From contig JAWXBP010000387.1 in the NCBI GenBank assembly GCA_034440135.1, positions 1 through 40,085 on the forward strand: 40,085 nucleotides of DNA. Reading direction: 5' to 3'. A program made the position numbers and the translations under genes. The notes under the pieces are model-generated. The model made no database searches. It was not told the origin of the DNA and saw only the letters and a list, made by a program, of their open reading frames with translations. Source of the DNA: Planctomycetia bacterium. GTDB lineage: Bacteria; Planctomycetota; Planctomycetia; Pirellulales; JALHLM01. Below, piece after piece: positions 7,849 through 39,225 of this stretch; position 1 is the first letter of the stretch; each line of letters opens with the position of its first letter.

Positions 7849-8487
7849 TTAGTTGCGATAGGAGACCTGGCGATGGGCACGGGTCGACTTGCGAACGCGG
7901 GCCGAGCTGTCCTGCATCGGAGCAGCGGGCACCGGGGCTTCTTCGCTGCTCGATTCGACCGCGGCGCCGCCGCCGCCGCACGAGCTGCATCCGCCGGTCG
8001 AGCAGCAGCTCGAGCAGCTATTGCAACTCTTGTGGCTGAACAAGCCTAAGAGGTCCAGGCCGCAGCACTTCTTTTTCTTGCAGCAGGAATCGCCGCAAGG
8101 ATCGCAGCACGCGGTCTCGGCTTCGCAGCTCGGTTCGCAGGCGTCCGCACACGGATCACTGCAAGGATCGCAGCACGCCGAGGCGCACGGATCGCAGCAG
8201 GAATCACTGCAGCACGGATCACAGCAGCCGCAATCAAACAAGCCGTGCAAGCCCTCGAACAACTCGCGGATCGGGTGGCAGCACTTCTTGCCGCAAGGAT
8301 CGCAGCACGCGTCGCCGCACGGATCGCATTCCGTCGTGGCTTCGCAGGACGGTTCGCAGGCGTCAGCACAGGAGCTGCACCCGCCCTTGTGGTTGCTGAG
8401 CATCCGATCGAGCAACTCGAAGCCGTAGCTCTGGCTACAAACTCCCAAGCTGACGACCAGAGCTCCAACTAGGCTAGTCCATTTCAT
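7849..8487 (-). CDS. Exported protein extremely rich in cysteine, with CDPC repeats
   Basis: A 212-residue protein from ATG 8487, which has an AAGGAGA site nine bases upstream; the open frame extends to 8736 but has no start support. Residues 1-22 form a Sec signal peptide (MKWTSLVGALVVSLGVCSQS). I count about 39 cysteines, nearly all in residues 36-170. They come in repeating units such as CDPCGDACCDPC, CCDPCSDPCADACEPSCE and KKKKCC. Two long units (around CADACEPSCEA) are near copies, so internal duplication is likely. Near residue 75 is a cysteine-poor segment (HPIRELFEGLHGLF). The tail (about 170-212) is Ser/Ala/Glu-rich and then basic. Cys pairs of this density suggest metal binding or a disulfide-crosslinked envelope component; no named family is claimed. 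It is a single-gene unit ending at a strong terminator. Confidence 0.85.
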   Translation of the reverse strand: MKWTSLVGALVVSLGVCSQSYGFELLDRMLSNHKGGCSSCADACEPSCEATTECDPCGDACCDPCGKKCCHPIRELFEGLHGLFDCGCCDPCCSDSCCDPCASACCDPCSDPCADACEPSCEAETACCDPCGDSCCKKKKCCGLDLLGLFSHKSCNSCSSCCSTGGCSSCGGGGAAVESSSEEAPVPAAPMQDSSARVRKSTRAHRQVSYRN

Positions 8488-9236
8488 CGAACATCGTCTC
8501 CTTCTGCTGTGAACCAGGAGTGCGCGCATTCCCGACGGCCAACCTCTCGCGGACACCGTTCGTACCCTTGGGCGTGAGGAGTGACTCCGGCCGGACTGGG
8601 CGTTTCGTGCGGGACGAAGGCCGAGGCTGATCGGGGTGTCGGCGGGCGTAGGTCGCGGGCGAGGGTCTCGATCCCCCGGTTCACAAGGTGTATTCCACCA
8701 GTGCCGTCGAGCCATTCCTTGACTCGAAAAGTCCAACGGCTGGGTCTGGCGCTCCCTCGCATGCCTTGTACAAGAGGCATGCTTTCCTCGTTAAGGGACA
8801 CTGACGGTATCGTCCGCCGAATCGCAGGGCCTTGAGCGGTCGGAAGTATTTTTCGCACAAGGATTTACCGCTCCTTGTGGGCAAACCTTTCCGCGCGACG
8901 AAGCTGGTGAAACCCTGCCGATTATGCATCCCCGACGCGACCGATTTTGCCGAACTTGCCGACGGAAAAGTCCCGCGCAAACGCGCGGCTCCCCAATCCG
9001 TCAGAGTCAACATCTTCAAAGGATGTCGCCACCGCACACTAACCCGAAGCGCCGGCGAGGGGGAGAGGACGTCGACGCAGCGGGCACAGCGCACTGAGGA
9101 TCGACGAATCGCATGGGATGTGCTCTTTGCGCGTCATGGCTCTCGGTCACCAGCGTCCCCTCCCCCTCGCTGGCGCTTCGGGTTAGTGTGTTGGTCGCTG
9201 CCTCAATACCCTACTCGCCAACGACTGGCAAACTCC
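8488..9236. other. Long intergenic region, partly occupied by an inverted-repeat element
   Basis: About 750 bases separate the cysteine-rich gene (minus) from the RraA-like gene (plus). The short open frames here give low-complexity basic translations and none looks conserved. The only strong structure is the 37-bp inverted repeat at 9035-9190, described separately. The rest should include promoters for both flanking genes, but I could not fix their boxes. Confidence 0.5.
9035..9190. repeat. Long inverted repeat (37-bp arms, 82-base spacer), MITE-like
   Basis: The left arm 9035-9071 begins CACACTAACCCGAAGCGCC; the right arm 9154-9190 ends GGCGCTTCGGGTTAGTGTG. The arms are reverse complements with two mismatches. 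The spacer (9072-9153) shows no coding potential. The element ends 46 bases before the RraA-like start codon. Its form is that of a non-autonomous mobile or repeat element; I recall the CGCTTCGGGTTAGTGTG core as recurrent in planctomycete genomes, unverified. Confidence 0.7.
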
Positions 9237-10105: not shown

Positions 10106-10253
10106 CGAAATTAATAGTGGGATGCGTATTGGGCTATCGTCGCGAGTTTGTTGAGCAGCAGTTTGGGGCAAGGTTCTTGGTCTAAGTCGGCGGTGACTAC
10201 GCAGGTATTGGGTTCGGTTTCGTTTCTTTCTAAACGTTTCAAGGAGAACAGCG

Positions 10254-11321
10254 ATGTCAAACGGTGGAATCGGACTAGGCGAAATAAAATCCGCTTTGGA
10301 AAACGCCGGGGAACCTTGGCAGGCTGGCATGACCAGCATCGCCCGCTTGGCTCCGGAGGAACGCCGGCGCCGGCTGGGAGTTCCTGGTGGAGCTAAGGCG
10401 GCGAAAGCCGCTATGCCGACCGCAGGCACAGTGCGGGCTCCGTCGGCTTACGACCTGCGCAATGTAGGCGGCAAGAACTTTGTGACGCCGATCAAGGATC
10501 AAGGCTCATGCGGTTCCTGCGTCTCGTTTGGCGTCGTGGCGACCGTCGAAAGTACGTTGATGGTGCAGCAGGGCTCCACCGATCCGGTGGACCTCAGCGA
10601 AGCCCACTTGTTTTTCTGCCATGCCCGGGACCGCGGCTATAACTGCAATACCGGCTGGTGGCCGAACGAGGCCCTAGACGATTTTCGCGACAAAGGCGTC
10701 GTCGACGATGCCTGCTATCCCTACAACCTCGCCAATACGGATTGCAGCGGACTATGTGACGATTGGCAGAATCGCCTCACCCGGATAGCCGGCTATCAGG
10801 ACCTGACGAACAAGGCGGACGCAATCAAGGATTGGGTATCCACCCGTGGGGCCGTAGCCGCCTGTTTTGAGGTGTATGAAGACTTCTTCTATTACCAGAG
10901 CGGAGTCTACCGGCACGTCACCGGCGGCTTGATGGGCGGGCACTGCGTGACGATCGTCGGGTATGACGACGCGCAGTCCTGTTGGATCTGCAAGAACAGT
11001 TGGACCACCGGCTGGGGCGAGCAGGGCTTTTTCCGCATTGGTTATGGCGAATGCGGGATTGAGACCTGGCTGAACCACGGCGCCGAGGGCGTCCAAGTCA
11101 GCGGTTGGATCAACTCCACGCGCGTCCAAGGCCTATGGACGATCAACCAGGAGTGCAACGCCTGGGCCTATCTGGCGAACAAAGGTTGGTGCAAAGTCTC
11201 GCCCGACAATTTGCAGATTTTCTCGACCATGTTAGCGCAGCTGGCGTCGGCGAAAACCGGCGGCCGCGTCGTCAACGTGTATACGGATCGGGACGTGATT
11301 AAGCAGGTCTATGTGTTTTGA
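10254..11321 (+). CDS. Papain-family (C1A) cysteine peptidase with a C-terminal accessory domain
   Basis: A 355-residue protein from ATG 10254 with a strong AAGGAG site (10241-10246). There is no signal peptide. Residues 8-45 form a short pro-region-like helix ending ERRRRLGVPGG. The catalytic domain runs about 60-285: oxyanion Gln83 and nucleophile Cys89 in QGSCGSCVSF, catalytic His230 in GGHCVTIVGYDD, and Asn248 in CKNSWTTGWGEQGFF. The Trp that usually follows the nucleophile is Val90 here. Extra Cys pairs (122, 131, 154, 164, 168) suggest disulfides or metal binding, odd for a protein without an export signal. Residues 290-355 form a separate domain (QGLWTINQECNAWAYL ... KQVYVF) that recurs in the next gene product. 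A chagasin-type inhibitor is encoded two genes on, as expected for a regulated papain-like enzyme. Peptidase call firm; substrate unknown. Confidence 0.92.
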   Translation: MSNGGIGLGEIKSALENAGEPWQAGMTSIARLAPEERRRRLGVPGGAKAAKAAMPTAGTVRAPSAYDLRNVGGKNFVTPIKDQGSCGSCVSFGVVATVESTLMVQQGSTDPVDLSEAHLFFCHARDRGYNCNTGWWPNEALDDFRDKGVVDDACYPYNLANTDCSGLCDDWQNRLTRIAGYQDLTNKADAIKDWVSTRGAVAACFEVYEDFFYYQSGVYRHVTGGLMGGHCVTIVGYDDAQSCWICKNSWTTGWGEQGFFRIGYGECGIETWLNHGAEGVQVSGWINSTRVQGLWTINQECNAWAYLANKGWCKVSPDNLQIFSTMLAQLASAKTGGRVVNVYTDRDVIKQVYVF

Positions 11322-11369
11322 TCGCTACGTTTCTGCTTGCTAATTCACTTAATGATGAAGGAGAACGAT

Positions 11370-11798
11370 ATGAGTCAAGCTACGCCTCAAGCCTCTCCGG
11401 CGAATTCGCCTTCGGCGGGGACTTCGAATTCTGGGCCCGCAGCGCCGGCGAAAACCGCGGCCGGATGCGGTTGCTCGGGTCAGACGGCAAGCGCCATGAT
11501 GGCGGGACCGGCAGGACCTGCGTCAGGCGCCGCGCCATCGATGCGCCCCGCCGGCGTCGGCGGCGCGATCGGCGGCCAATGGCACAACGCTAAGCGCATT
11601 ACCGGTACTTGGTGCATCAACGAAGTCCGTAACGCCTGGGTCTACGTCGACGGACTATCCTGGCGAAAGCTAGCCAACGGCTTGGATAGCGCAACGATCG
11701 CGCTGTCTTTGCTCGGCGCCAGCGCACTAGCCACGGGTACCGCGACGGATTTGCGAGAAGAAGCGGACGGTATGATCCACGAAATGTACGTGTGGTAG
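11370..11798 (+). CDS. Small protein sharing the peptidase's C-terminal domain
   Basis: A 142-residue protein from ATG 11370, preceded at six bases by AAGGAG (11358-11363); the context AAGGAGAAC is identical to that of the peptidase gene 48 bases upstream. Residues 1-68 are low-complexity Ala/Pro/Gly/Ser with a CGCSG motif (33-37) and end in a GGAIGG segment (64-69). Residues 75-142 align by eye with residues 290-355 of the peptidase: both have Arg, then GxW, IN, NAW, a Tyr strand, a Trp-x-Lys, a helical stretch and a C-terminal YVF or YVW. I do not recognise this domain. No signal peptide is visible. The layout suggests a precursor or partner of the peptidase, perhaps cleaved near the Gly-Gly site. 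That is inference. Confidence 0.8.
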   Translation: MSQATPQASPANSPSAGTSNSGPAAPAKTAAGCGCSGQTASAMMAGPAGPASGAAPSMRPAGVGGAIGGQWHNAKRITGTWCINEVRNAWVYVDGLSWRKLANGLDSATIALSLLGASALATGTATDLREEADGMIHEMYVW

Positions 11799-11827
11799 CC
11801 GCTTTCTCGACGTGATCGAAATCGCTT

Positions 11828-11872
11828 CCGACGGCGGCGCGCCTCGCCGCCGTCGGTCGATGACTTTTTTTC
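11828..11872 (+). terminator. GC-rich hairpin with downstream T-run between the small protein and inhibitor genes
   Basis: CCGACGGCGGCG (11828-11839) pairs perfectly with 11845-11856 around a 5-base loop. A T-run (11864-11872) follows after eight bases. It may act as a terminator or attenuator ahead of the chagasin-like gene. The gap between stem and T-run is longer than usual, so efficiency is uncertain. Confidence 0.55.
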
Positions 11873-11886
11873 AAAGGCACTGAAAC

Positions 11887-12186
11887 ATGCCACTGACCGA
11901 GAGTGACGATGGCCGCACGCTGACCGTGGACGCCAACGCGGAATTGTCCGTCAAACTAGGCGAGAACCCCACGACGGGCTATCGATGGTCCGTTGACCAA
12001 TTGACGGCCGTCGTCTTGGTATCCGATCGCTTTGAACCCGGCGACGCCATCGGCGCGGCGGGACATCATTGGTTTGTGTTTCGCGCCGGCGCGCCAGGTT
12101 CCGGCGGCGTGAAACTCAAGTTGAGTCGTCCTTGGCAAGGCGACCCACCCTTGCGCGCGTTTGCCGTCACGCTGATCGTTCAATAG
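11887..12186 (+). CDS. Chagasin-family (I42) inhibitor of papain-type cysteine peptidases
   Basis: A 99-residue protein from ATG 11887 with an AAAGG site upstream. The inhibitory loops of the chagasin family are visible: NPTTGY at residues 27-32, a Gly-containing segment (GAAGHHWFVFRA, about 56-67), and RPW at 81-83. The length fits a chagasin without a signal peptide (about 100-110 residues). In the family these three loops block the active-site cleft of C1 peptidases. The nearby C1 peptidase without a signal peptide is the obvious target in the same compartment. It follows a hairpin and so may be made at a lower or separately set level. Known: the family inhibits papain-like enzymes. Inferred: the pairing with this peptidase. 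Confidence 0.9.
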   Translation: MPLTESDDGRTLTVDANAELSVKLGENPTTGYRWSVDQLTAVVLVSDRFEPGDAIGAAGHHWFVFRAGAPGSGGVKLKLSRPWQGDPPLRAFAVTLIVQ

Positions 12187-13377: not shown

Positions 13378-16300
13378 TTGGCCTCAGACGCGACAGATGT
13401 CGCGACGGCTATTCATAAACTGCCGCTGAACAACAAGTTGCGTCGGCAAATGCTCGCGCGAGCAGCGGCCGAAATTGGACTTCCGCAAGCGAACTCATAC
13501 CGCATGGACACGCCCACGCCGCTGACGGATGCGCCTGCGGACATTGACGCGCTGTTGGGCTATCTGAACTTCTCCTCCGGCGCGCCGGACGTGCGCTTTC
13601 AGCGCGGCCTGAACCGGCTGTTCGCCGAGATTGAGGGAAATCACCCGCAAGGCGCCTGGAGCGAAGTCGGAGATATGCTGGCGGCTCGGTTGCAAGCGAA
13701 GGCTGGCGCCCCGGGGCCTTTTTCCGACGCAGGTCAGGCGTCCGGCGTGCTGCGGCTGGTGTTTGGAAAGTTGCTGCCCGCCTACCGCGCCTTTCACGCC
13801 GACCTTTTGTTCCACCAGACCGACGAAGCCTTGTTCCGGCCGTTTTTCTTGGCCCGCGCGTTCGAGACGGCGTTGTCCGTCGGTGGACCGTGGGACGAAA
13901 CCGACCGTATCGTCGCCAAGTCGATCGAGTTACTCAACGACTTCCTCGGTTATCGCCCCCTGGCGACTTTGGAAGGCAAGCGGATCGAACCGTATCCGCA
14001 TGAGTGGGTGCGCCCCGTCCCGATCATGCTGCGCGAGGCTGGCGTCGGCGCAGGGCCGTATGCGGAATTGATCGAGCGCACCTTTGAGGTGCTGCGATCA
14101 ACACCGCCGGAAATCCTGCGTCAGGCCGGCTTTGACCCCGAGTTGGTGGACGAACTGGCATTCGATCCGCGGGCGTTTGATTTCGATCACCCGGTCAACA
14201 AGCGGCCGAATTACATGTTCGGTTGCTGGGATCTGAACATCGTCGATCTCGGCGGCTTCTACCGGCGTTTTGTGATCCAACAAATTACGCTTGACGCCTT
14301 GAACGAACGCCCGCAACATGCCCAAGGCGCGGCGCGCGACGAATTGTTGTTCGAATCGGCCGTGGTGCTGGCCGGAACCATCCTGATGGCCGCTGGCGTG
14401 AGCGGCAGCGGGCCTGACGCGCACGATTCGTCGATGACATTGATGAAGATCGTCGCGCATGTGGCGAAGTATCGCGACGCCTATTACCAGGACACGCTCG
14501 CCCGCCAGTCCGGCAAACGTGGCGAGCGCTTGCAAGCCGAGGCGCAGCGCAACCAGCAGCCGTTCGGCGCCGTGCGACAATACTTGAATCACCGGCTGGC
14601 GCGGCTGCGCGCCAAGCAGTTGCAGCACGTGCAATTGGCGCAGCTGTTTTCGCGGATGGGACAGCCAGCCGCGTCGCTGCGCCAGGCCGAGGTCGTGCCC
14701 GTCGCGTCGGCGCGGTTGCTCTGTCAGATGCAATGCGCCCGCGTGACGGCGCTGCGTTCGTTTTCGTTGGGAGACGTGGCCGCTGGTGCAGAGCATGCGA
14801 GGCAAATGCGATCCTTGCTGGACCGCGGCATCCAATGCGGGGCGATCGTCGATCCCTGGAACATCCTGGGATTCACCGGCAACTTCAGCCTCTTTCCCGC
14901 CATCCAAAACTCCGTCGTCGATCACCGCATCGAGGTGCTGATCGATTCCGTGGAACAAGTATTCGCGCTCCTGACGCGGTGGGAAAGCGAAGCGGCCATC
15001 GCCGGACAAGAATCATTGCGGCAAGAGGCGCGCGAGCGATCCCAGGAGCTCGCCGAATGGTGGGACCAGTTCGCCACCACCGAAGTCAGTAACGTCCGCA
15101 GTTTCTCCGGTCGCGAAGTGACCGAGTCGGCGCGCCAGGTCGCCGCCGGTCTCGCCACCTGGCGGCGCGCGGAATCCGCCGCGGGAGACGTGGGCTTCTG
15201 GCGCAAGCATATTCACGAATTCCGCTCACCCAAGGCCTTCGGGCAGGTCGTGGCGGCGCTGCTGGAGAAGCACGATCACGTGGCCGCCATGGCGCTGATG
15301 ATGCAATGGCTTACCGCCGCCGAAGTGCCGCTCGTCGATCTGGAACATTCGTTTCACGCGTTGGCGCTACGCTGGCTTCGCACGCTCTGGGCTCGGACGG
15401 ACGAAGGCACTTCGGAAACTAAGTGGCAACTAACCCGCAAATTCCACGACTACCTGGAAGCCAACGCCGAGCATTGGTGGGAATCGCCGCGTTGGGCCTT
15501 GAACGAATACAGTCGCGAGCCGGGCGATGCGCTGTCGCATCCGAACGACGACGAAGAGGAAGACGTCTTCGGCGCGGCATATGACGAGATGACCTACCGC
15601 GACACGACCGACGACGGCGTCGAAGGAGACATGGTCTCCGGCGGCGAAGCGACCGACGACGAATGGGAACGCGAATGGCGGCGCGTTAAGTCCAGGCTCG
15701 CCATGCTGGAAGGCGTCGCGCGCTGGCGTAAGCTGGCCGTGGAATTGGCCTCGCAGTCGGGCGTCGCGGCCGATGAGATGTCCGCCACGACCATGGACTG
15801 GGATCGGCAAACCGAAGACTGGGAACGTGGGCTCCGCGAGCTACTGGTCTCCGTACAGCAACAGAGCATCCCGCGTCCGCTGCCGACGGAAGAATCGCTG
15901 TTGGATTACGATCGCCGCCGCGGATTGAAAGACCAGGTGCTGCATCACGTCGGCCAATGTCTAGTGGACGCGAACCTGGCGTCGATTTGGCTGCGTGCCG
16001 CGGCCGGAGAGGACCAGGCGACGAGTACTCAGCGCGCTACGCCGCCATGGCAGGCCTCGGCCGTCGCGCTCTTGCGCGCGGTGTTACGGACTGACGCGAA
16101 CGCGGCGCGGGCTTGTTTCCCGGAGGTGCTTGCGCGTCTCGATGCGGAGCCGATCCTGTACACGCCGCTCACCAAGGGTGGCGATCCGCGCAAGATTGTC
16201 GCTTCGCGCGTCTTTCATACGTTGATCGAATATTGGCTGGAATCGCTCCCGCGACTCGGCCTGTTGCTGGAATCTTGGCAGTTACTCGATACCGCGCGGC

Positions 16301-17412
16301 GCATGGAGCGGCATCGCGGGTCGTCGGATGGAGTCGTCACCGAATACGACCGACTCTTCGAGGCCGGCTTCGTGGCGATCGTCGACAGCGTCGTGCGATT
16401 GGAAACGCGGAGTCAGCGCCCGCTCGACGCCGACAACGAACTGATCGAGGCCCTGCAGGTTGTCTCCGAACCACTGGTCGAACGTTGGCTCAATCATAGT
16501 CGGCGCGTGCGCCTAAGCGTGCTGGAGCGCGTCGTCGACGAACGTCGTTGGAAGGAGCTCGTTGAGTTCATCCGCCGCTTCGGCCGCGATTTGTTTACGC
16601 AACAGTTCTTTCATCCCGGCAACATGCGGGCGATTCTCCATCAGGGCGTCGGCGCGTGGATCGACGGCTGTCTCGAAGCGATCGATACCGGCGAACAGCC
16701 GCGACTCATCGAGGCCATTGCCGAAGGCTACGACCGCGAGCAGGCTGCCAGCACACTGGCGCTCGTGTTGGAAGCGGTGGGCGAGAACTTCGACGTCTAT
16801 CGCGACTTCAACACGACGACGACGCAATCGGACCGCGGCGAGCTGATCTACATGCTGCTTGACCTGCTGCGACTGAAGGCCAGCTACGATCGCTTCGAAT
16901 GGAACCTGAAGCCGGTCACGCTCGCGCACCAGGTCTTGATTCAGGCCGGGCGCACCGCCGCGGCCGAAACGTGGCGGCGCGCGATCGCCGAAAAGACGTC
17001 CGACGTCGCCACCTGGCACTTGAAACGGCTCGCGGAGCTCAATGCGGAATATGGACTGCGACTCGCGACGATTCAGGATCGCCTCGAAGAGCGCTTTGTG
17101 CGCCCACTGGCGATCGACCGGATGCGCGCGTTGATTCGCCCCGCTATGCAGGAAGTCCGCGCGACCGGTACGAGCCCGAGCTTCGAACTACTGGAACATG
17201 AAGTGGTCGAATTCGCCGACGCCCCGACCGGCGCCGGTCTGGACGTGCCGCGCTGGCTCGTCGATCTGGAAGAGGAAATCGCCCGTTCCGAAGAAGCCAC
17301 CGACGCGCCGCCGCTCATCTGGCCGGCGGAACAAGTGCGGCTGACGTGGGAAGAAATCGACCGGCAACTCAAGGAATGGCTGGACGATAAGCGCTTGGCG
17401 GATGACGAGTAA
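13378..17412 (+). CDS. Large conserved-looking helical protein of unknown function (1344 residues)
   Basis: A single open frame of 4035 bases. The start is TTG 13378: a TAG stop lies nine bases upstream in the same frame (13369-13371), and AGGATGA just before the TTG is a plausible ribosome-binding site; the next ATG is at 13450. The protein is mostly alpha-helical, without a signal peptide or clear membrane segments. A central stretch (about residues 721-770) is strongly acidic (DDEEEDVFGAAYDEM, DDGVEGD, TDDEWEREW). Helix-rich segments resemble TPR-like or superhelical scaffolds, for example AAGLATWRRAESAAGDVGFW and RRVRLSVLERVVDERRWKEL, but no repeat can be defined. Codon and amino-acid composition match the neighbours. 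No catalytic motif recognised; a cytosolic scaffold is one guess. Confidence 0.85.
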   Translation: MASDATDVATAIHKLPLNNKLRRQMLARAAAEIGLPQANSYRMDTPTPLTDAPADIDALLGYLNFSSGAPDVRFQRGLNRLFAEIEGNHPQGAWSEVGDMLAARLQAKAGAPGPFSDAGQASGVLRLVFGKLLPAYRAFHADLLFHQTDEALFRPFFLARAFETALSVGGPWDETDRIVAKSIELLNDFLGYRPLATLEGKRIEPYPHEWVRPVPIMLREAGVGAGPYAELIERTFEVLRSTPPEILRQAGFDPELVDELAFDPRAFDFDHPVNKRPNYMFGCWDLNIVDLGGFYRRFVIQQITLDALNERPQHAQGAARDELLFESAVVLAGTILMAAGVSGSGPDAHDSSMTLMKIVAHVAKYRDAYYQDTLARQSGKRGERLQAEAQRNQQPFGAVRQYLNHRLARLRAKQLQHVQLAQLFSRMGQPAASLRQAEVVPVASARLLCQMQCARVTALRSFSLGDVAAGAEHARQMRSLLDRGIQCGAIVDPWNILGFTGNFSLFPAIQNSVVDHRIEVLIDSVEQVFALLTRWESEAAIAGQESLRQEARERSQELAEWWDQFATTEVSNVRSFSGREVTESARQVAAGLATWRRAESAAGDVGFWRKHIHEFRSPKAFGQVVAALLEKHDHVAAMALMMQWLTAAEVPLVDLEHSFHALALRWLRTLWARTDEGTSETKWQLTRKFHDYLEANAEHWWESPRWALNEYSREPGDALSHPNDDEEEDVFGAAYDEMTYRDTTDDGVEGDMVSGGEATDDEWEREWRRVKSRLAMLEGVARWRKLAVELASQSGVAADEMSATTMDWDRQTEDWERGLRELLVSVQQQSIPRPLPTEESLLDYDRRRGLKDQVLHHVGQCLVDANLASIWLRAAAGEDQATSTQRATPPWQASAVALLRAVLRTDANAARACFPEVLARLDAEPILYTPLTKGGDPRKIVASRVFHTLIEYWLESLPRLGLLLESWQLLDTARRMERHRGSSDGVVTEYDRLFEAGFVAIVDSVVRLETRSQRPLDADNELIEALQVVSEPLVERWLNHSRRVRLSVLERVVDERRWKELVEFIRRFGRDLFTQQFFHPGNMRAILHQGVGAWIDGCLEAIDTGEQPRLIEAIAEGYDREQAASTLALVLEAVGENFDVYRDFNTTTTQSDRGELIYMLLDLLRLKASYDRFEWNLKPVTLAHQVLIQAGRTAAAETWRRAIAEKTSDVATWHLKRLAELNAEYGLRLATIQDRLEERFVRPLAIDRMRALIRPAMQEVRATGTSPSFELLEHEVVEFADAPTGAGLDVPRWLVDLEEEIARSEEATDAPPLIWPAEQVRLTWEEIDRQLKEWLDDKRLADDE

Positions 17413-37715: not shown

Positions 37716-37883
37716 CGGCGGCGGAGTGCTCCAAGCTGGCGTTGACCGTGCGTTACGCATGGAACATGCCTCTCAGGGGATACCCCTGGGGATCGTGAAT
37801 GGCTAGGATTTCGTCGCGCGAGCCGCGATGCGCTGCGAGCATGATTGCTCGCGCAGGACCCGACTCGTTGGAGCATTCCGCCG
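37716..37883 (+). ncRNA. Retron msr-msd non-coding RNA
   Basis: The ends are a 16-bp inverted repeat: a1 CGGCGGAGTGCTCCAA (37719-37734) and a2 TTGGAGCATTCCGCCG (37868-37883), paired fully with a single G-U. Right after a1 comes AGC (37734-37736), where retrons place the branching G; G37735 is the candidate. Two short msr-type hairpins follow: CCGTGCG/CGCATGG at 37746-37762 with a 3-base loop, and CAGGGG/CCCCTG at 37774-37788 with a 3-base loop. The msd-type part holds an 8-bp stem GCGCGAGC/GCTCGCGC (37816-37823 and 37847-37854), flanked by GTC/GAC, with an alternative hairpin at 37835-37852. The reverse transcriptase gene begins 17 bases after a2. Overall order (promoter, a1, msr, msd, a2, RT) is the retron order. 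The exact msr/msd boundary is not resolved by eye. Confidence 0.8.
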
Positions 37884-37899
37884 TTTTTTCGTTGTTGCC

Positions 37900-39225
37900 A
37901 TGGATTCCTCAACCGCTGTCGCCCGCGCGCTTGCCATGGCGTTCCTGGCGGACGAGTTCGACGAACAGCGGCTCGTCGACCGCGGTGCAATGGTCCTCGG
38001 GAAGTCTCCCAAGTGGTTGCCGAGCTTGGCGCGGCGCATTGTCGGCCGATTCGGCGGCACGGCGCGGCCGCGGCGAAGAGAACTGGTTTGCTTTATCCAG
38101 GACGACGTTGCCTTTCAACGCGCAAGTTCGCGGGGCAAACTGAAGATCGTCACTTGGCCGCTGATTCCGGCGCGAATGGCGCCAATGACGGCCGCCGTCG
38201 CGTGGAATGTCCCAGAGATTTGCTCGATCGGCGCGTTGAGCGAATGGCTCGGCGTTTCTGTGCGGGAGTTGGAATGGTTTGCCGACCTTCGATCCTGGGA
38301 AGCGAAGCGCGCGACGGAGCGAGCGCGGAATTATCGATATCGAGTGCTGGCCAAGAAGTTCGGCCAGGTAAGGCTCATCGAAGCGCCCAAGCCGCGACTC
38401 AAGGCGATCCAGCGACGGGTACTGGACGGAATCGTCAATCTCATACCACCGCACGACGCCGCGCACGGCTTTCGGAGCGGGTGTTCCATCCGGTCATTCG
38501 CCGCGCCGCACGTAGGGCAGGACGTTGTACTGAAGTTCGACTTGCAAGACTTCTTTCCGTCGATTGCCAAGCCGCGCATTCGTGCGATCTTCACAGCGGC
38601 AGGCTATCCCGAATCAGTCGCCGATTCGTTAGCGGGACTTTGCACGAATCGCACCCCGGATGACATTTGGCATAACTTGGATTGGCGTGGCACTGGTGCG
38701 ACGAATCGCGATCCCCGTCGCGCATACGATCTTCCCCATTTGCCACAGGGAGCGCCGACGTCGCCCGCGTTGGCGAATCTCTGCGCGTTCCGCTTAGACT
38801 GCCGACTGGAGGGAATCGCGAGATCGGCCGGCGCTAACTACACGCGCTATGCGGACGACCTGGCGTTTTCCGGCGGCGCGACTTTCGCGCGGGTTGTGCA
38901 TCGATTTCAGCATCATGCGTGCGCGATTGTGCTTGAAGAAAACTTCACGCCGAACTTTCGCAAGACGCGCATCATGCGCCAAGGCATGCGACAACGCTTG
39001 GCGGGAATCGTTGTCAACGAACGATTGAACGTCGCGCGCGTCGATTACGACCGACTGAAAGCGACGCTCACTAACTGCGTTCGCCACGGCCCAGAATCAC
39101 AGAACCGCGCAGCCATCGAGAACTTCCGAGCACATCTGACGGGCAGCGTGGCGTTTATCGAGTCGATCCATCCGGAACGGGGAAATCGGCTGCGGCAATT
39201 GCTAGAGCAAATCGACTGGACCTGA
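37900..39225 (+). CDS. Retron reverse transcriptase
   Basis: A 441-residue protein from ATG 37900; the frame is open to 37828, but that part overlaps the msd and a2, so the later start is preferred although no ribosome-binding site is seen. Residues 1-130 are a basic N-terminal extension. The RT core follows: EAPKPRLKAIQRRVL (161-175), HGFRSGCSI (189-197), AAPHVG (201-206), catalytic Asp214 in FDLQDFFPSI, LPQGAPTSPALANL (281-294), YADD (317-320), and the thumb-side segment RLAGIVVNERL (366-376). In most retron RTs this last segment has VTG; here it is LAG. The N-terminal extension and the EAPKPRLKA/HGF/AAPHVG pattern resemble myxobacterial retron RTs such as Mx162, from memory. It makes msDNA from the adjacent RNA. 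No effector gene follows on this strand. Confidence 0.9.
   Translation: MDSSTAVARALAMAFLADEFDEQRLVDRGAMVLGKSPKWLPSLARRIVGRFGGTARPRRRELVCFIQDDVAFQRASSRGKLKIVTWPLIPARMAPMTAAVAWNVPEICSIGALSEWLGVSVRELEWFADLRSWEAKRATERARNYRYRVLAKKFGQVRLIEAPKPRLKAIQRRVLDGIVNLIPPHDAAHGFRSGCSIRSFAAPHVGQDVVLKFDLQDFFPSIAKPRIRAIFTAAGYPESVADSLAGLCTNRTPDDIWHNLDWRGTGATNRDPRRAYDLPHLPQGAPTSPALANLCAFRLDCRLEGIARSAGANYTRYADDLAFSGGATFARVVHRFQHHACAIVLEENFTPNFRKTRIMRQGMRQRLAGIVVNERLNVARVDYDRLKATLTNCVRHGPESQNRAAIENFRAHLTGSVAFIESIHPERGNRLRQLLEQIDWT

Follow-up and report, generated by a model that had tools for sequence, protein, structure and literature searches.

The closest described systems are staphopain/staphostatin, SpeB/Spi and the C10 proteases of Bacteroides with Bfi. 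In each of them a papain-fold zymogen is encoded beside a small dedicated inhibitor, whose presumed role, according to the accessible parts of the literature, is to shield the cytoplasm of the producer (PMC3462683, PMC8443034). Here we describe a three-gene locus in a stretch of 40,085 nucleotides from a Planctomycetia bacterium (contig JAWXBP010000387.1 of assembly GCA_034440135.1, hereafter the window). A papain-family (C1A) peptidase gene, a gene for a small partner protein that shares its C-terminal domain with the peptidase, and a gene for a chagasin-family (I42) inhibitor together span positions 10254-12186 within 1.9 kb, all on the + strand, and this gene set agrees with the initial annotation. 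With a probability of about one half, we believe that the trio encodes a restrained complex around a protease that is released or otherwise acts outside the cytosol, and from which the I42 protein protects the producer.

As far as the accessible text of those papers goes, the cassette differs from the systems named above in several respects. Their proteases are exported (in Bacteroides with leader peptides) and belong to C47 or C10, whereas the window peptidase matches C1A only and is leaderless; staphostatin, Spi and Bfi represent other inhibitor families than I42; and neither a third, domain-sharing protein nor a spread over bacteria and archaea is mentioned there, while the cassette has both. 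By analogy, the cassette would work like the staphopain/staphostatin-type systems, but it is not a member of them. In the chagasin/cruzipain and other protozoan I42/C1A pairs, a leaderless I42 inhibitor controls the cell's own C1A peptidase, as would be the case here, according to the accessible part of the source (PMC5014320), and the cassette differs from these pairs by being prokaryotic, by its operon-like linkage, by the shared domain with its predicted oligonucleotide/oligosaccharide-binding (OB) fold, and by the partner protein. Cip1 of Pseudomonas syringae is, in the same text, also a bacterial I42 protein with the motifs NPTTG and RPW, which are named for chagasins, but it carries a signal peptide and is directed against C1A proteases of plants, whereas the window inhibitor is leaderless; most Pseudomonas genomes are stated to encode no C1A protease, and the role of bacterial chagasins was described as not yet elucidated as of 2016 (PMC5014320). 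One of two recent papain-family surveys states that prokaryotic C1A peptidases of the cell interior have no signal peptides (PMC10380794), and chagasin is not mentioned in the accessible main text of either (PMC10380794, PMC10318531). We found no account of this three-gene set in a literature search that left most subscription journals outside, and within that scope the earlier statement that no such system has been described stands.

The peptidase, the inhibitor and their linkage

The peptidase gene (10254..11321, +) codes for 355 amino acids without a visible Sec signal peptide and matches PF00112 with E 5.2e-48 and 164.5 bits, compared to a curated cut-off of 20.7. Its catalytic domain (10437..11070, +), as judged from alignment and model, contains Gln83, Cys89, His230 and Asn248 as well as the co-varying cysteine pairs Cys122/Cys164 and Cys154/Cys168. 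The active site had been annotated as intact at Cys89, His230 and Asn248, and these residues are indeed invariant, together with Gln83, in 42 of 42 aligned peptidases. This alignment covers 42 of 48 loci (loci are given by L numbers); L041, L048, L058, L063, L064 and L091 were left out because of their source, runs of N, uncertain starts or a contig edge. Ahead of the catalytic domain lies a propeptide-like region (residues 1-61; 10254..10436, +), which is recognizable by a conserved pattern, among the relatives approximately WxAGxTSxSxLSxEExxxRLGxxPxPGE, and by structure comparison with procathepsins. A Pfam scan gave no match of the I29 propeptide model in the window peptidase. The predicted structure has a predicted local distance difference test (pLDDT) score of 89, and its best matches in VIA comparisons are proenzymes (cathepsin B, papain and others), with alignments that start at residues 1-7; in the case of procathepsin B, Z is 30.9 and the root-mean-square deviation (rmsd) 2.7 over 268 residues. 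Because the model aligns with proenzymes from its first residues on, we read the N-terminal region as a propeptide, and we infer that the peptidase is probably a zymogen with a short propeptide.

The inhibitor gene (11887..12186, +; 99 amino acids, no leader) matches PF09394 with 69.4 bits (cut-off 27.2, E 3e-19), and this match, together with the motifs NPTTGY and RPW, bears out the assignment to the chagasin type; the GxGG loop motif reads GAAG. A loose NPTTG-type motif was found in 43 of 47 inhibitors and an RPW-type motif in 46, and most of these proteins start with a methionine just ahead of the domain.

In the host genome of 7.29 Mb, a whole-genome search gave a single PF00112 match and a single PF09394 match, and both are these neighbouring genes. 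The genes of the trio are separated by 48 and 88 bases. The same site AAGGAGAAC can be read in the sequence as ribosome-binding site before the peptidase gene (10241..10249, +) and before the partner gene (11358..11366, +), as had been noted earlier, though it is of an ordinary Shine-Dalgarno type; the inhibitor gene lacks it. A congener, on record as a Pirellulales (Planctomycetota) assembly, has the same three genes in the same order with 91, 85 and 76% identity. In this comparison, the ratio of nonsynonymous to synonymous substitution rates (dN/dS) amounts to 0.085 in the peptidase, 0.12 in the partner (0.04 in its domain and 0.23 in its tail) and 0.17 in the inhibitor, and all three genes are thus under purifying selection.

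To see the trio in a wider context, 84,980 species genomes were scanned, and the best 80 of at least 530 related loci were analyzed, a choice that favours likeness to the query. The peptidase with the shared domain was present at 48 of these 80 loci, which is therefore no measure of prevalence; 46 of the 48 have the partner gene, and 45 the full trio. The proposed check whether the three genes are neighbours in related genomes thus came out in favour of the trio. The I42 gene lies on the same strand in 43 of the 45 full trios and on the opposite strand in two (L076, L087). Of the three incomplete loci, L053 and L059 reach the contig edge right after the peptidase gene, and at L092 an I42 gene was not found. 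As the congener keeps the ordered and selected genes and as 45 of 48 loci have the trio, the linkage goes beyond chance; a chance neighbourhood is ruled out by these two results and by the single C1A and single I42 gene of the genome.

Among the organism labels of the full trios are the bacterial ones Planctomycetota, Pseudomonadota, Bacteroidota, Cyanobacteriota, Acidobacteriota, Actinomycetota, Thermodesulfobacteriota, Thermomicrobiota, Deinococcota and that of a Saccharibacteria bin, and the archaeal labels Methanobacteriota and that of a Bathyarchaeota bin. Many carriers are metagenome bins, but named strains are among those of Methanoculleus sediminis, Niabella, Niastella, Longitalea and Poseidonocella. 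On plasmid pDAETH-2 of Deinococcus aetherius (L041), consecutive genes encode a peptidase with 54% identity, a small protein with 44% identity within the domain and a protein annotated as I42. The window peptidase is 66% identical to that of a Syntrophobacteraceae bin and 62% to that of Methanoculleus, but only 55% to that of another Planctomycetota bin, and for this reason the trio has likely been spread by horizontal transfer. The only chagasin of the genome adjoins the only peptidase of the papain family, and the unit is conserved under a dozen phylum labels, so that the question of what prokaryotic chagasins inhibit becomes one that a direct binding assay can address.

Alternatively, the peptidase could be a plain protease for nutrition or housekeeping that comes with an inhibitor for safety and was spread by chance transfers, and the genes around the trio do belong mostly to housekeeping-like families without a pattern. 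Against this stands the near absence from the genomes of order and phylum. In the order sample, the small protein was matched in 4 of 296 genomes, with a real gene only in two, the window's genome and the congener; the two further matches are weak and partial, and one of them crosses stop codons. Of the 392 genomes in the phylum sample, 1 contains the shared domain, and in the class sample some C1A match was present in 53 of 397 genomes, with a best other match of 35% identity over residues 39-265 only. Since, moreover, the peptidase and its partner appear to form an old pair that was kept together (see below), we regard an ordinary protease as quite improbable.

The shared domain, the partner protein and variant loci

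The partner gene (11370..11798, +; 142 amino acids) starts with ATG, an alternative TTG start at 11337 being less likely, and its dN/dS value argues for a real gene. That its C-terminal domain is the same as that of the peptidase had been proposed before, and the whole-genome search agrees: the last ~72 residues of the peptidase and the last ~73 of the partner are 33-34% identical (E 2e-4). The two domains were delimited with a hidden Markov model at 11103..11318 (+) in the peptidase, with an OB fold predicted from the model, and at 11577..11795 (+) in the partner, with an OB fold predicted by AlphaFold2 at a pLDDT of ~90. AlphaFold2 on 41 partners gives the layout strand-strand-strand-helix-strand-strand; the underlying alignment includes 41 of 48 partners, without L041, L058, L068, L071, L072, L081 and L092. 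The domain is unnamed in Pfam, where no family matched more than one of 27 members, and matches to YSIRK, lachnocin and DUF1180 were below cut-offs and were dismissed.

Could these domains form a ring, as the B subunits of AB5 toxins do, with at least one position that bears the peptidase? The best fold matches point in this direction, as LT-IIb B was matched by VIA with Z 10.3 and rmsd 2.9 over 85 residues, and the top rows of Foldseek were AB5 toxin B subunits. These rows had E of 0.003 or more, and Foldseek gave no match for the domain at E up to 0.001, neither in its general search nor against viral models; a sequence profile search of the PDB found no relative and no B subunit, only one chance match with E 0.5. 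SilF fits better in terms of rmsd (1.4 over 64 residues, Z 9.4), CipA is matched with Z 8.8 and rmsd 2.8 over 76 residues, and the OB fold alone may explain the likeness to B subunits. As there is also no signal peptide, an AB-type assembly is very improbable. We take the shared domain to be an OB fold and no more, a fold likeness that says nothing on function.

More can be learned from the ancestry of the domain. In a tree of 96 domains, the 48 peptidase-borne and the 48 partner-borne domains lie on two sides of one branch, which has a support of 97/95, occurs in 96% of bootstrap trees and was reached in 0 of 500 shuffles; the tree has few columns, and L092 sits near its root. It covers the loci with peptidase domain and partner, of which 46 belong to the 80 genome loci and the other two are the window and L041. 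From this split into two clades it follows that the duplication predates the spread and that the pair has been together since; judging from the tree, the two domains are an old duplicate pair kept together. In Mantel tests on 47 trios (without L092), the distance matrices of peptidase-borne and partner-borne domains correlate with r 0.82, those of the peptidase core and its own C-terminal domain with r 0.69, and those of the core and the partner or the inhibitor with r 0.63 and 0.53; none of these values was reached in 2000 permutations, which ignore common ancestry. With its two old, co-travelling clades, the shared OB domain can serve as a test case for how paired domains may fix a two-protein partnership through transfer.

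The N-terminal part of the partner (11370..11573, +) is a tail rich in Pro, Ala and Gly, predicted to be disordered at a pLDDT of ~50; it contains a CGC motif and, where relatives have PxxxPP, a degenerate APSMRP. Residues 1-67 are disordered in the AlphaFold2 prediction on 41 partners. The motif P-x-x-x-P-P, usually in the form A-P-T-L/Q-x-P-P, occurs in 36 of 47 partner tails with 56 copies in total, whereas 1000 shuffles gave 2.3 copies on average and never more than 7. CxC was found in 7 of 47 tails including that of the window, a number that 0 of 2000 shuffles reached. All these tail counts omit L092, and the start codons of the relatives were chosen by a simple rule. Only two of 48 partners have a hydrophobic stretch above 1.6, in both cases Ala/Val-rich pieces of the tail. 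The CxC tails and the fold match to SilF brought up a radical-SAM peptide or a metal-binding partner, which we keep as a thought only.

Related loci show what can be exchanged in this arrangement. Among the best 80 loci, 32 lack the shared domain, and 19 of these have an I42 gene within 4 kb. The 14 of them that were looked at keep the N-terminal region and the catalytic domain, and alternative C-terminal modules are DUF5648 (L084), DUF346 repeats (L088) and others without a name. L084 and L088 thus have the same N-terminal region and catalytic domain as the cassette, but not the shared OB domain, and a second gene is absent or codes for another repeat protein. The peptidase of L084 bears a repeat tail of its own. 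At L088 (9756-10163), L089 (9750-10109) and, after a masked stretch, L094, a small protein with MPxGxM repeats (5, 5 and 4 copies, 0 of 5000 shuffles) and a CGC-type end is encoded between peptidase and I42. At L105 (7692-10041), the peptidase is followed by a repeat-tailed small protein, which shares another C-terminal domain with it and has ALPEAPP repeats in its tail, and then by I42. An assignment of this L104/L105 domain to the family of the shared domain was not supported by profile comparison, which gave a probability of 2.6%. L105 thus hints that one shared domain can take the place of another within an unchanged gene arrangement; the core seems to be the protease with I42, to which a repeat-bearing chain is a frequent extra, and the shared domain may, as these few loci indicate, be one way of holding such a chain to the enzyme.

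Such chains raise the question of whether the peptidase simply processes its partner. It could cut the repeat tail, with peptides or a trimmed partner as product, and I42 would only time the reaction. The short motifs that recur in the partner tails would fit this idea, as would the MPxGxM repeats of the small neighbours at L088, L089 and L094 and the repeat tail of the L084 peptidase itself. Papain-type cleavage, though, is usually poor at proline positions such as those in PxxxPP, and conservation within the partner is lowest in the tail, with the dN/dS of 0.23 given above against 0.04 in the domain. As the exact motif is also absent from the window tail and several relatives do without any second gene, processing is an unlikely function.

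Some loci have additional C1A genes. In four Niabella genomes (L068, L073, L079, L097; ~1 kb upstream of the trio) and in two bins of cyanobacteria (L075, L093), the gene of the trio-type peptidase is closely preceded by a second C1A peptidase gene that is more distantly related. At L015 (1-951), C1A and I42 are fused in one frame, with Asp at the position of the expected catalytic Cys, and a second C1A gene comes after it.

Place of action

The initial annotation regarded the trio as an intracellular, self-restrained protease module. Self-restraint is well in line with the conserved trio, the adjacency of the sole C1A and the sole I42 gene and the N-terminus that aligns with propeptides, but the intracellular location is not supported. 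Of 14 cysteine columns in the peptidase alignment, positive co-variation was found in two pairs: Cys122 and Cys164 are both present in 39 of the 42 sequences and both absent in 3, without mixed cases, and Cys154 and Cys168 are both present in 29 and both absent in 12, with one mixed case. Cysteines 86, 89, 131, 231 and 246 are invariant, and the positions of 86/131 and 122/164 are those of disulfide bonds in papain. The co-varying pairs behave as disulfides do, a hint at disulfide bonds and therefore at a place outside the cytosol. A second hint comes from the inhibitors. By eye and with uncertain starts, 3 of 47 have a lipoprotein-like leader (L045, L061, L075), which may point outside the cytosol, and in six more a leader is doubtful (L044, L051, L058, L063, L071, L074). 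Yet the peptidase has no Sec signal, and the statement that no signal peptide is visible in any of the three window proteins agrees with our reading of the sequences.

This absence of signal peptides is what would be expected if the peptidase were a cytosolic defence or suicide enzyme, with I42 as an antitoxin-like brake that is lost upon infection or stress, so that the cell is killed or arrested. The patchy spread across domains of life (1 of 392 genomes in the phylum sample) is also as in conflict genes. On pDAETH-2, the only annotated trio locus that was looked at (L041:9745-16726), two genes of the caspase family (Peptidase_C14) and one for a hypothetical protein come directly after the trio, and at L104 a DUF6345 gene lies between peptidase and I42. 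A function in defence, which had also been considered in the initial annotation, finds no support in the systematic searches. PADLOC matched none of the three trio proteins, and no PADLOC family occurred in more than one of 143 neighbouring open reading frames (ORFs). Pfam detected no family in more than three of them and no recurrent secretion genes, and the largest neighbour cluster, apart from the trio genes and their alternative frames, came from 8 loci at scattered distances. These ORFs were chosen by a crude longest-ORF rule at no more than 39 of the 48 loci, without close relatives, the window, L041 and L043, and a weak enrichment could be missed. A defence island or secretion cluster was thus rejected, as clustering and scans of the neighbours show nothing recurrent. 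Relatives on viral contigs (17 loci) are distant peptidases, all 17 without the shared domain and I42; a first scan of viral contigs with a single protein had no match, in phage records 2 and 1 matches to distant peptidases turned up, and a phage origin was rejected on these grounds. Together with the co-varying cysteines and the lipoprotein-like leaders of some inhibitors, this makes an intracellular defence function rather unlikely.

We therefore return to the restrained, released or otherwise extracytoplasmic protease as the preferred reading. The horizontally spread cassette would encode a protease complex whose peptidase lacks a Sec signal and is synthesized as a zymogen with a short propeptide. 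The OB-fold domain of the peptidase would pair with its paralogue in the partner, and this pairing would bring the disordered tail with its proline motifs to the enzyme as a tethered arm, which could be a pseudo-substrate, a regulated substrate or an aiming arm. I42 would be the dedicated inhibitor that prevents any active enzyme from harming the cell in which it is made. Most likely, the peptidase would act beyond the cytosol of the producer, after release by lysis or by another route, possibly on another cell or on a surface protein, and I42 would then serve as self-protection.

Several observations weigh against this reading. As there is no Sec signal on peptidase or partner and as no recurrent secretion genes lie beside them, an extracytoplasmic role needs a separate exit route. 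Most of the 47 inhibitors, that of the window among them, have no leader, and the losses of Cys122/164 represent only about two events (L060, and L085 with L098). The r of 0.82 is weak support for docking, because the permutations ignore ancestry and because two copies of one domain may share their rate, and the tails of window and congener lack an exact PxxxPP and have only APSMRP. Going one step further, the trio could be an effector/immunity cassette of a new class that spans bacteria and archaea, in which the leaderless papain-family zymogen and its motif-tailed partner, joined via paralogous OB domains, form a proteolytic complex against other cells and the chagasin is the immunity protein. 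If so, prokaryotic chagasins would here face a peptidase of their own in its native context. We put this forward as a tentative idea, possible rather than probable.

Other genes of the window

The trio is flanked upstream by an RraA-like gene and downstream, on the opposite strand, by a ThuA-like gene. Downstream of the trio, positions 13378-17412 (+) form an open frame of 1344 residues without a Pfam match above cut-off. Upstream of it, the open frame at 7849-8736 (-) has a stretch that resembles a leader, and it contains numerous Cys-rich repeats of the type CCDPC/CGDxCC. The frame at 37828-39225 (+), situated near the contig end, contains the reverse-transcriptase-like motifs YADDLAFSG and QGAPTSPALANL, and by eye it may code for a reverse transcriptase of the retron type or a related one.

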